From a virus: 29,135 nucleotides of DNA. The notes beneath the pieces are model-generated. The model saw only the letters and a program-made list of their open reading frames with translations. It made no database searches and was not told the origin of the DNA. Of this stretch, positions 22,198 through 28,503 are shown in pieces (the stretch's first letter is position 1; each line of letters opens with the position of its first letter). Where the stretch lies: positions 1 through 29,135 of IMG/VR virus record IMGVR_UViG_3300025087_000258; one strand, 5' to 3'. The translations under genes were made by a program, and so were the position numbers.

Positions 22198-23892
22198 TCA
22201 TCCTGTGTCTCGCAACATTATCTCCTCGAATTGCCGCATCCTGTCAGCTTCTTGCTCGTCTTCGTTTTCTTTCAGCATTGACTGGTGCTTAGCATCAAAA
22301 TAAACCCCTTTCAAAATTGAACGTGCGACGAGCTCCAGTCCCTCGGCTTCCGACATTTCCCTTTTTTCTGCGATAGATACATCAATCGTCAACATTGTCG
22401 CGGCCACCGATACGGCATTCTCCACTTCCATTCGCACAACTTTGGCGGGATCAATCACGTCTTTGCCAATCGCAATTCCTCCGCAATTCTCTTGAATTAA
22501 CTCGTAGGGAGCTTTTAAGGCTTCAGTTAACACGCCTTCGGGCAACTTTTCCGCGATCTTTTTCAAGCATAATCCTCCTCCCTCGACATATCCTTCCTCT
22601 AAAGCCGCTTTGCACGCATACACTCCATCGTCAATTTTTAGTTTTAGATACAGTCCCTCTTTATCGGTATCCGCGCCAACTCGGATCACCCCCACCGCAG
22701 ATGAAAGACTGGCGATTCTTTTTTCCAACGAAATGCGGGTCAATTCATTTCTCGATTCTTCAACTTGTTTTTTTAACACTTTGCATCTCTCGTACACCAA
22801 TGAGCCGTCGCCCCGTTTCGCCTTTTCGCCCTTGCCGCCAAGAAGCACCGCATCCTCTTTGTTTTCGGTGTCTTTTACCACAATTTTTTCAGCAAAACCC
22901 AAATCTTCGGCAACAACATTCACTAATTTCTTTCCTGTGTCTTTGTCGATTAAGGTCGCTCCAGTATAAACCGCCAAATCTTCCAACTGCTCGGTGCGAA
23001 GCGAGGGAGATTTTATGGGATAACAAAATAATCCGTTTTTGGTGGTTTCTACCAAAGACTTAATAACTCCTCCCGAAAATTCTGGAGCGAATAAAGCGAG
23101 TTTAGGAACCTTGCAATTATTGAGCAATGCCACAATCTCAAACGGATTATCGAGCTTGTAGTTTGTGATAAACACCGCCACATCTTCGGCTATCATCTCA
23201 AATCTTTCGGGCTTGTTGATAAAAGCTCGGTGGGCGAGTTTCGCGGGGAATCTCATTCCTCTCACCACCTCGGTTTCAATTTCCCCCTTATAGCCCTCGA
23301 CAACGTCAATATGATTATCTATAAACTTTCCAGTTGCGTCCCTACCAATTTCAAATACCATTTTCGCCACGACTTTGGAAATTTCTGGTTCTTTGGTTGA
23401 GATAAAAGCGATTTTCTCAAGCTCGGCCAGAGTCTTAATCGGCTTGGAAACCTTTTTGATTTCTTCCACCACCAAATCTTTGGCCAATTTCATGTCTCGT
23501 GCCATTACTACGACATCTTTTTCTTTTTTACCGCCTAAAGAAGCCGAGGGGGTGTCGTCCGTTAATCCCTGAAATGTATCGGCGATAATTTTTCCCGCAA
23601 TGACCCCCGTTGAAGTCGTGCCGTCTCCAACCCGTTGATTAGTTTTTGAAATGGCCTCCTTGAACGCATCGGCGGCGGCTCTCTCGTGTTCATCTTTCAA
23701 AATTACGTTTTCCGCCACATAAAAACCGTCGTCCGCGATACGGGGGCCGCGGTTATAACTTCTAGGAAGAATAGCTGAACGTCCACTCGGCCCCAAGGTT
23801 GGAGCGATAGCTTCCACCACCTTCATCACGCCCGATAAAATCTTAGCGCGGGCTTGATTTCCGATTAAAATACTTTTGTATTTTTCTTGCAT
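22198..23892 (-). CDS. groEL: Phage-encoded chaperonin, GroEL family
   Basis: The 564-aa product covers a full group I chaperonin. The ATP site is present: TLGPSGR (32-38), ADDG with Asp55 (53-56), GDGTTSTG with Asp90 (89-96) and, in the C-terminal half, IDDGVYACKAALEEGYVEGGG-like sequence around 420-440 with Asp422, so ATPase residues are kept. The apical domain is divergent, and an extra charged loop occurs near 117-130. The usual Gly-Gly-Met tail is replaced by an acidic/basic tail. It probably forms a ring that folds phage proteins such as the capsid. No GroES gene is seen nearby. It starts directly at the stop of the preceding gene (TAA-ATG). Confidence 0.92.
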   Translation of the reverse strand: MQEKYKSILIGNQARAKILSGVMKVVEAIAPTLGPSGRSAILPRSYNRGPRIADDGFYVAENVILKDEHERAAADAFKEAISKTNQRVGDGTTSTGVIAGKIIADTFQGLTDDTPSASLGGKKEKDVVVMARDMKLAKDLVVEEIKKVSKPIKTLAELEKIAFISTKEPEISKVVAKMVFEIGRDATGKFIDNHIDVVEGYKGEIETEVVRGMRFPAKLAHRAFINKPERFEMIAEDVAVFITNYKLDNPFEIVALLNNCKVPKLALFAPEFSGGVIKSLVETTKNGLFCYPIKSPSLRTEQLEDLAVYTGATLIDKDTGKKLVNVVAEDLGFAEKIVVKDTENKEDAVLLGGKGEKAKRGDGSLVYERCKVLKKQVEESRNELTRISLEKRIASLSSAVGVIRVGADTDKEGLYLKLKIDDGVYACKAALEEGYVEGGGLCLKKIAEKLPEGVLTEALKAPYELIQENCGGIAIGKDVIDPAKVVRMEVENAVSVAATMLTIDVSIAEKREMSEAEGLELVARSILKGVYFDAKHQSMLKENEDEQEADRMRQFEEIMLRDTG

Positions 23893-25370: not shown

Positions 25371-26429
25371 CTAAGTTCTTAAACTGGGTTTATAATCAAG
25401 TTTCCAGCGGGATAATTTATAACATCTCTCCATCGCTTCCTGCGGAGTTTTCATGGTCGGAGCAACTCGGACATAAATCATTTCGTTAAACTTTGACGGG
25501 TCAGCATCCCGAAAATAAACGTATTCATTTCCGTTACCGTCTTTCAAACTCTGTAGTCTCCATAACTCACCATATTCGTCTTCGGCGAATTTTTCCCCCT
25601 TGAGTTCTTTTAAGATTTTATTTCCTCCCAAATAACGCATAGCAACTGAACGCTGGTCTTGGTTTTCAATTTTAATGGCTTCTTGAGCGGACAAAGTTTT
25701 ATTAGTGATTGATGCCCACAAGTCTTTTTCAAAAAATACACCGTCCAAAAAATATCCCTGTAATCCGTCAGGCCATGAAATAGCAGGTACAGTTTGGGAA
25801 TGAAATTGGTTTGAGTCATTTATGCGAATTTCGGGGGCGGGTGCAGTATAAATTGTATCTTCCCATTCAACGACATAACCACACCCAGCTTTTCGAGCGT
25901 CAAAAAAGCACCTATAAATTGCATCGGCTTTTTGGCTATTTTTATCTTTTCTATGCTGGAGAAATTCGAAATCATCAACCCAATAATCGAAGTCATAATC
26001 TATAGAGGCGCGGAAGGCGCTGAAGGCAGTAAAGGCGCGGAAGGCGCTGAAGGCGCTGGAGGCGCTGGAGGCGCTGGAGACGCGGAAGGCGCTGGAGGCG
26101 CTGGAGGCGCGGGAGGCGCTGAAGGCGCTGGAGGCGCTGAAGGCGCTGGAGGCGCTGAAGGCGCTGAAGGCGCGGAAGGCGCTGAAGGCGCTGGAGGCGC
26201 GGGAGGCGGCACCCAATAATTTTTTATCTGTCCAATCGGTGCAAAAAATAATCTCACTGGGAAACTTACATTCTGCAAAAATATAAGACTTTTTCAATGC
26301 TTCAACAATTTTTTCCTTCTCGAAACGAAAAGACTGCAAATTGACTTGCCCAATTTCTTCAATTAAGGCAAGAGTTTTGTCCGTGAATCCTCTCTTTTTT
26401 TCCGCATCAGTTTTAAGCATATTAATCAT
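25371..26429 (-). CDS. DUF6745-like protein with a three-residue repeat domain
   Basis: A 352-aa protein. The N-terminal 70 residues contain a helix and a short strand block (FRFEKEKIVEALKKSYIFAE). Residues about 76-141 are a low-complexity run of A-S/F-S/R triplets (SAFSAFRAFSAFSASSAF) from a 9-bp minisatellite. The C-terminal part (about 255-345: VAMRYLGGNKILKELKGEKF, EYGELWRLQSLKDG, YVRVAPTMKTPQEAMERCYK) resembles the DUF6745 domain, recognised from memory. Such proteins are commonly next to a small partner like that at 26491. Their function is unknown. The repeat interrupts an otherwise folded protein and may vary in length. Confidence 0.65.
   Translation of the reverse strand: MINMLKTDAEKKRGFTDKTLALIEEIGQVNLQSFRFEKEKIVEALKKSYIFAECKFPSEIIFCTDWTDKKLLGAASRASSAFSAFRAFSAFSASSAFSASSAFSASRASSASSAFRVSSASSASSAFSAFRAFTAFSAFRASIDYDFDYWVDDFEFLQHRKDKNSQKADAIYRCFFDARKAGCGYVVEWEDTIYTAPAPEIRINDSNQFHSQTVPAISWPDGLQGYFLDGVFFEKDLWASITNKTLSAQEAIKIENQDQRSVAMRYLGGNKILKELKGEKFAEDEYGELWRLQSLKDGNGNEYVYFRDADPSKFNEMIYVRVAPTMKTPQEAMERCYKLSRWKLDYKPSLRT
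26007..26204. repeat. 9-bp minisatellite, 22 units
   Basis: Twenty-two consecutive 9-bp units of form GGCGCTGGA (8 units), GGCGCTGAA (7), GGCGCGGAA (3), GGCGCGGGA (2), GACGCGGAA (1) and GGCAGTAAA (1). On the coding (minus) strand each unit is GCC-TYC-NGC, encoding A-(S/F)-(S/R). Its GC content is far above the neighbouring AT-rich sequence. All six frames are mostly open, so long frames here on the other strand are by-products. Slippage and unequal crossing over would change length in 3-residue steps without breaking the gene. Confidence 0.95.
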
Positions 26430-26490: not shown

Positions 26491-26841
26491 TCAATCCTGC
26501 ACTTTTCTATCCGCTAGCTCGTTATACTCAAACTGTACTTGAAAATAATACAATCCTTTTTCAAGAGTGTGCGGCTCATGTCCTCCTACTTTTTCATGGA
26601 CAATCTGCGCCGTACCCGACTTCACTTTAAGAAAATATCCGCCTCCGTCTTGAGCAAATTCAAGCTCCGCTTCTTTGTCTTTGACAATGACGTGATTGTG
26701 TCCCGATTCGCTGTGAGCGACGACCAGCCTCTCTGTTAAGGGACTGAATGTAAACTCTATGTCTGAAGCATCAAGCTGAATGATTAAGACATCTCCTTGC
26801 GCCCTGATTCTTGTATCTCCGTTTGGATAGATTTTGTTCAT
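26491..26841 (-). CDS. Conserved small partner of the DUF6745-like protein (116 aa)
   Basis: The pattern RIRAQGDVLIIQLDASD, VVAHSESGHNHVI (GH.H motif), FLKVKSGTAQIVHEKVGGHE and LEKGLYYFQVQFEYNELADR matches a small beta-rich protein that I know, in many bacteria and phages, as the neighbour of DUF6745 proteins (motifs of the RQGDVLL ... GH.H.I ... LPAG.Y.V..QREY type). The His residues could bind metal. It lies 61 bp upstream of the repeat-containing gene, transcribed together. Function of the pair is unknown. Confidence 0.65.
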   Translation of the reverse strand: MNKIYPNGDTRIRAQGDVLIIQLDASDIEFTFSPLTERLVVAHSESGHNHVIVKDKEAELEFAQDGGGYFLKVKSGTAQIVHEKVGGHEPHTLEKGLYYFQVQFEYNELADRKVQD

Positions 26842-27918: not shown

Positions 27919-28395
27919 TTACGAATACAAAACATTTACACAAGCAAATTCACCAAAAATTCTTTTTGCGTTAAGGTTATACGCTTCTGCCGCGTCTTTC
28001 TCACTTTCAAAAGAACCAAGATAAATTCCCCCAAAATTTTTGTCATATATTTGTGAATACCATTTACTTATACGCTTATTCCGATATACTCCTTTATATT
28101 TTGATGAATTCCCCCAACTTTTTGTTTTGTTCATACAATTTTGACTTCGTGTGGCTATTCTAAGGTTTTCTCTTTGATTATCTAGTTTATTTCTATTTAT
28201 ATGGTCACAAAATTCTACTCCTTTTGGTTGTAGTATTTCTCGGTGCATAAATATATCCTTGCGTACCCCACGACGACCAATAGTTCTTACTGCGTATCCC
28301 CAATTACTTGCATGCCATTTAAAAGAGTTTAGATATTCAAAATCTTTATCGTCCACTAATGATATTTTTCCTTTAGTTAATTTAATTTCACGCAT
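27919..28395 (-). CDS. HNH-AP2 homing endonuclease
   Basis: I use the ATG at 28395 (158 aa) because MREIKLTKGKISLVDDKDFE is the typical N-terminus; the frame continues upstream into a structured non-coding element. Domain 1 (about 1-95) is HNH: FMHREIL (His51), EFCDHINRNKLDN (Asp64-His65, Asn68), ENLRIAT (Asn77). Domain 2 (about 99-151) is an AP2-type DNA-binding fold: YKGVYRNKRISKWYSQI then YLGSFESEKDAAEAYN and AKRIFGEFA. This pair is a common phage free-standing homing nuclease. It sits directly upstream of the initiator gene in the same orientation. Confidence 0.85.
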   Translation of the reverse strand: MREIKLTKGKISLVDDKDFEYLNSFKWHASNWGYAVRTIGRRGVRKDIFMHREILQPKGVEFCDHINRNKLDNQRENLRIATRSQNCMNKTKSWGNSSKYKGVYRNKRISKWYSQIYDKNFGGIYLGSFESEKDAAEAYNLNAKRIFGEFACVNVLYS

Positions 28396-28424
28396 ACTCG
28401 TAAACTTAAATCCGCCAGTCCAGT

Positions 28425-28503
28425 GGCGACAAAAGTACAAAAGCACATTTGTTTCTGGGCTGACGGGTTAAAATCTACGATGATAGTGCTTTTTATTGTC
28501 GCC
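28425..28503 (-). ncRNA. Large stem-loop upstream of the HNH-AP2 gene
   Basis: Two nested perfect 8-bp stems: GGCGACAA/TTGTCGCC (28425-28432 with 28496-28503) and AAAAGCAC/GTGCTTTT (28439-28446 with 28486-28493), separated by a small internal loop and capped by about 39 nt. It lies in the gap before the HNH-AP2 start (minus strand) and could be a regulatory leader or part of the nuclease-associated mobile element. Whether it is transcribed is unknown. Confidence 0.4.

Follow-up and report, generated by a model that had tools for sequence, protein, structure and literature searches.

A tandem array lies in frame within a phage DUF6745 gene

What might a phage gain from a long and highly regular array of nine-base-pair repeats in the middle of one of its proteins? 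The locus that raises this question lies in a 29,135-nucleotide stretch of viral DNA (IMG/VR record IMGVR_UViG_3300025087_000258), the whole of which is referred to here as the window. Tandem Repeats Finder identified one outstanding array of period 9 (score 266, against 76 for the runner-up in the window), with 86% matches, 0% indels and 22.6 copies, a figure that is not an exact count, since the tract exceeds short-read length and the real population may differ. The array is in frame with a minus-strand open reading frame (Table 1), the C-terminal part of which matches Pfam PF20530 with an E-value of 4e-10 (39.8 bits against a gathering cut-off of 27). Tandem Repeats Finder, the list of open reading frames and Pfam thus agree with the original prediction of an in-frame, 22-unit array in a DUF6745-like gene. 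In the list of units, the first codon is GCC throughout save for one GTC, the second is TCC or TTC with a single TTT, and the third is AGC or CGC with a single ACT.

Table 1 Features of the array-bearing gene and of its partner, in window coordinates.
Feature	Position	Strand	Basis
DUF6745 gene carrying the array, 352 aa	25371..26429	-	ORF list, Pfam
N-terminal domain ahead of the array, three helices and a strand	26208..26429	-	Alignment, AlphaFold2 model
9-bp tandem array, (A-[S/F]-[S/R])n, about residues 75-139	26006..26208	-	Tandem Repeats Finder, unit list
DUF6745 domain proper, residues 195-350, motif H-x4-P-A-I-x-W-P-D-G	25380..25847	-	Pfam, alignments
Partner gene, 116 aa, 61 bp upstream of the DUF6745 gene, uncharacterised all-beta family	26491..26841	-	Family HMM (E 4.7e-24), alignment, pairing census, AlphaFold2

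The array had been likened to a contingency locus. A classical on/off switch of this kind is excluded, because the nine-base-pair unit never shifts the reading frame, and the array, free of indels and in frame within its gene, shows none of the frame- or promoter-based on/off features of a phase-variable locus. The order of its units was indistinguishable from random, and it was not amongst the 9 of 58 arrays in which block duplication was significant.

Confidence in the AlphaFold2 model is moderate for the N-terminal domain and the C-terminal region of the protein, both of which are folded, and the array tract has no structure in it (pLDDT 20-27), a result that establishes neither a triplet helix nor disorder. 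By alignment, the N-terminal domain matches that of other phage DUF6745 proteins; a search of viral contigs for relatives of the N-terminal domain found none. Fold searches with the DUF6745 model returned nothing in the PDB below an E-value of 0.7, and the top matches in BFVD were all to further DUF6745 proteins or to unnamed proteins of phages. At the sequence level, the window protein had no match in the PDB or in the phage and plasmid collections searched, and NCBIfam and PADLOC gave no useful match (PADLOC has no model for DUF6745, and weak NCBIfam matches on the L074 repeat are low-complexity noise). A search of the literature found no paper naming DUF6745 or PF20530.

The gene sits amongst replication and recombination genes (replication initiator-like and NinG-like). 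Downstream of it, the window also codes for a GroEL-like chaperonin (22198-23892, minus strand; Cpn60_TCP1, E 2.8e-20; phrog_5725, E 2e-69). A gene resembling HNH and AP2 homing endonucleases lies at 27919-28446 on the minus strand and shares a 55-bp stretch, at 87-89% identity, with homing endonucleases of uncultured human gut phages.

Arrays of three- or four-residue units are widespread in phage DUF6745 proteins

DUF6745 relatives were gathered from viral contigs by scanning with a motif and with a profile. Of the 68 distinct viral DUF6745 open reading frames that came from the profile scan, 59 carry an array in the corresponding position, with a unit of 4 residues in 43 of these arrays and of 3 residues in 16. 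The phage proteins have a common layout, in which the array stands between an N-terminal domain and a short linker that leads into the DUF6745 domain, and the array of the window belongs to this widespread class. The grammar of the unit is specific to lineages: three-residue units read A-[LR]-[AD], A-[RW]-[AD] or, as in the window, A-[FS]-[RS], and four-residue units read A-A-[ERW]-S, S-V-[GRW]-[AD], Q-V-[GRW]-[AD], N-L-[GRW]-[AD], A-T-[ERW]-[AD] or A-V-[DGR]-[DG]. A scan for the A-[SF]-[SR] pattern in DNA returned mostly antisense or shadow frames, including DUF6745 arrays on the opposite strand (L005, L013, L015 and L020).

An array is also present in a prophage of M. abscessus and in a small Nocardia farcinica plasmid, and is absent from actinobacterial chromosomal DUF6745 proteins, from Microcystis phages and from a Streptomyces plasmid. 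The chromosomal and Microcystis phage proteins share with the window both the homologous domain (PF20530) and the same partner gene, described below, but their central region is non-repetitive, implying that the array is dispensable for the domain.

Several other proteins (L039, L040, L053 and L066) consist of many L-H-R-E-D-G-P-A repeats; DUF6745 contains a similar motif once. Bacterial DUF6745 genes adjoin genes of the STM4015/STM4014 family on plasmids of Methylobacterium currus (L426, 1147-3966) and Streptomyces cadmiisoli (L424), and matches on a Deinococcus plasmid overlap one DUF6745 gene and an STM4011 family radical SAM gene. These bacterial STM401x-family neighbourhoods suggest a cellular pathway for DUF6745.

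Arrays turn over far faster than the sequences that flank them

Close copies of the window gene were found on two IMG/VR contigs. One of them (L002) is identical to the window gene along its length and stops at residue 195. The other (L001) is 88% identical across the aligned protein and 86% identical in the best segment; its array, within which the contig terminates, occupies the same frame and place and is built of other codons, partly as a hexapeptide (GCG TTC AGA GTG TCC AGC, AFRVSS). Since the two arrays differ in codons and units, the array has been rebuilt after the two phages separated. A fixed repeat number with identical codons amongst relatives, the pattern that the original prediction had named as refuting it, is thus not what L001 displays.

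Across the family, arrays differ between DUF6745 genes with flanks that are 95-99% identical. Contig L109 (4059-6599) has a tandem pair of DUF6745 genes whose flanks are almost identical (2 differences in 185 C-terminal codons) and whose arrays, of 35 and 32 units, are 29 unit edits apart. Another pair (L161 and L163) has flanks that vary in a normal way, with 17 synonymous codon differences to 8 non-synonymous ones, and arrays, of 30 and 27 units, at a unit edit distance of 20. DUF6745 arrays therefore turn over as whole units are gained, lost and shuffled, far faster than their flanks. Rapid turnover, with lengths that vary between phages, had been anticipated, and is seen here both in near-identical genes that differ in array length and order and in the different units of L001. 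In 28 of the 82 DUF6745 open reading frames counted, the contig ends inside the frame on its upstream side, a pattern that arrays would produce by interrupting the assembly of short reads, and this again makes the copy number in the window approximate.

Variation within arrays is almost entirely non-synonymous

We counted one-step codon variants in 69 arrays, a set that includes some related phages, using distinct variants because those within one array are not independent. The count was 261 non-synonymous against 19 synonymous variants. Given the codons in these arrays, 67 synonymous variants would be expected, and no simulation out of 200,000 yielded so few. Arrays had been detected through their amino-acid periodicity, which is a bias against finding non-synonymous variation. 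The window array contributes 3 non-synonymous variants and 1 synonymous variant, four being too small a sample by itself. In the DUF6745 arrays as a set, mean heterozygosity at the first, second and third codon positions was 0.143, 0.194 and 0.023, so that third positions are nearly fixed. Furthermore, one residue grammar can be written in different codons by different phages: A-[RL]-[DA] is found as GCG-C(G/T)G-G(A/C)T, GCC-C(G/T)C-G(A/C)C and GCA-C(G/T)C-G(A/C)C. As a class, DUF6745 arrays vary almost solely where the amino acid changes. SAA[WREG] arrays of other phage families lean the same way, at 196 non-synonymous to 25 synonymous variants (46 synonymous expected), and a collagen-like control, of only 3 arrays, showed ordinary synonymous variation, with 18 synonymous variants seen against 15 expected.

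The array had also been proposed to act as a spacer. Because nearly all of the variation alters the amino acid, it is likelier that the identity of the residues in this segment matters than that the segment is a plain spacer. The same counts bear on the view that this is a neutral GC-rich minisatellite, in which slippage expands a tolerant linker and length alone, if anything, matters. Drift would leave synonymous variants in the arrays, of which far fewer were seen than expected, whereas the few collagen-like arrays retain them in ordinary numbers; limited sets of residues, moreover, recur with unrelated codons. We consider such neutrality unlikely, even though each array is made of homogeneous units, as slippage predicts, the tract is given no structure by AlphaFold2 and some DUF6745 proteins do without an array.

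DUF6745 genes form a two-gene cassette with a small partner

Amongst viral DUF6745 open reading frames with both sides visible, 53 of 54 were accompanied by the partner gene listed in Table 1. The two genes were on the same strand in 53 of 53 cases, with the DUF6745 gene second in the cassette, after the partner. Chromosomal, plasmid and Microcystis phage DUF6745 genes are also flanked by it. The cassette provides the first fixed context for this uncharacterised domain. By alignment, the invariant features of the partner family are G-D, the glycine of G-x-x-H, three histidines (including H...H) and a C-terminal Asp. The adjoining same-strand gene of the window belongs to this family, which is marked by QGDV, GHxH, H-E-x-H and a C-terminal Asp; the second histidine motif (H-E-x-H in the family) is HEKVGGHEPH in the window. 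No Pfam, NCBIfam or PADLOC model matched the window partner. AlphaFold2 predicts an all-beta fold (mean pLDDT 88), for which the best PDB match (E 0.1, Z 4.3) is not meaningful and cupins appear only at Z 2-3.

A neighbour of such constant identity is what might be expected if the array were a repetitive binding surface, with variable R, W, F, L, G and E set against A, D and S on a regular backbone, that recognises a partner such as the small protein of the cassette or a host protein and has no counter-defence role. Each unit combines a single invariant scaffold residue with one or two positions that vary at balanced frequencies, which is compatible with this, but the tract has no structure in the AlphaFold2 model, and we think it a minority prospect.

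It is more improbable still that the two genes make up a toxin-antitoxin-like or modification cassette, common to phages and chromosomes, in which the array only tunes dimerisation or solubility. Searches against toxin, antitoxin and defence models gave no match, which argues against this. The pairing of a small partner with a larger gene on one strand, in phages, plasmids and chromosomes alike, would fit such a cassette, as would the near-invariant C-termini (Asp in 133 of 135 partner-family members; mostly ET, QT, ES or RT in DUF6745 proteins).

That the plus strand instead encodes a collagen-like G-x-y protein, of which the minus-strand reading is a shadow, can be practically discounted: a 95-aa plus-strand open reading frame (25932-26219) does read as GAE/GAG repeats, but on the minus strand the tract is flanked on both sides by domains conserved in relatives, and L001 loses the glycine period of the plus strand and keeps the triplet of the minus strand.

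The arrays resemble the repeats of Tweety gp54

Contrary to the original prediction that such a repeat had no description in phages, a similar one was published in 2007: gp54 of mycobacteriophage Tweety contains 48 tetrapeptide repeats, and its relatives Che8 gp57 and PMC gp51 contain 26 and 15 (PMC2884959). The authors found third positions to be fixed and suggested selection for variation (PMC2884959). Tweety mutants that escape a prophage-encoded defence have since been found with more or fewer gp54 repeats, which was read as the tuning of counter-defence (PMC9262239, PMC8549241). The idea that the array is tunable thereby acquires a published experimental parallel.

Like the window gene, Tweety gp54 is an accessory phage gene in which unique N- and C-terminal parts enclose a GC-rich array that keeps the reading frame, and both arrays have an invariant Ala scaffold with variable residues. 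Tweety gp54 and the DUF6745 arrays as a set also share fixed third positions and a repeat number that differs amongst close relatives. The unit is 4 residues (12 bp) in Tweety and 3 residues (9 bp) in the window, 12-bp units being the commoner form amongst other DUF6745 arrays. The flanking domains are unrelated: they are phrog_3416 in Tweety, to which the window protein has no match, and DUF6745 in the window. A Tweety-like protein (L247) matched phrog_3416 at 2.7e-138, and the Tweety-like protein cluster is without DUF6745. The window array is a three-residue-unit, DUF6745-cassette form of Tweety-type array-bearing phage proteins, and one case of a large set that had not previously been collected. 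Variable region VR2 of bbp36 in Bordetella phage BMP-1, compared here by its description only, is likewise a repeat array in a non-essential phage gene with a copy number that varies by isolate, but its element is 24 bp long rather than 9 bp (PMC2884959).

By analogy with Tweety gp54, a role in tuning counter-defence is the best current reading of the DUF6745 arrays. For the window gene, we put at about even odds that a hypervariable in-frame array, placed between the N-terminal and DUF6745 domains of a phage accessory protein, supplies variants tuned to defence. Errors in copying the repeats would rapidly generate new array lengths and residue patterns; the array may govern the way in which its two flanking domains engage a partner that itself changes, most probably a defence protein of the host or of a prophage, in which case selection would keep arrays diverse; and repeat loss or gain could retune counter-defence, for which Tweety gp54 is the precedent. 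A wider generalisation is possible but more doubtful, namely that the DUF6745 cassettes of phages form a large group of effectors that diversify themselves. Each unit of three or four residues would combine a fixed scaffold with one or two variable side chains; copying errors would rebuild the array and selection would keep it diverse, each lineage being tuned against the defences of its hosts or their prophages; and like arrays would have arisen in or moved into several unrelated phage families. If the link to counter-defence is true, phages would have a means of diversification that, unlike diversity-generating retroelements, does without reverse transcriptase, and further genes of this kind could be found by a computable signature.

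The isolated case of Tweety gp54 becomes a testable general pattern, in which many unrelated phage proteins contain arrays of rapidly changing length and composition, with amino-acid changes and very few silent ones. SAA[WREG] arrays like Tweety's were found in DUF6745, Tweety-like, DUF7666, Imm5_like and other phage proteins. Their occurrence in unrelated phage families indicates that the array behaves like a recurring module. The DUF7666 (PF24703) and Imm5_like (PF21805) phage proteins have the same kind of array as Tweety and the DUF6745 proteins and are otherwise unrelated to them; their flanking domains are different and, in those examined, only a short C-terminal tail follows the array. 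Individual examples of SAA[WRE] arrays in unrelated families are L239, L254, L271, L277 (DUF7666), L287 (Imm5_like) and L297.
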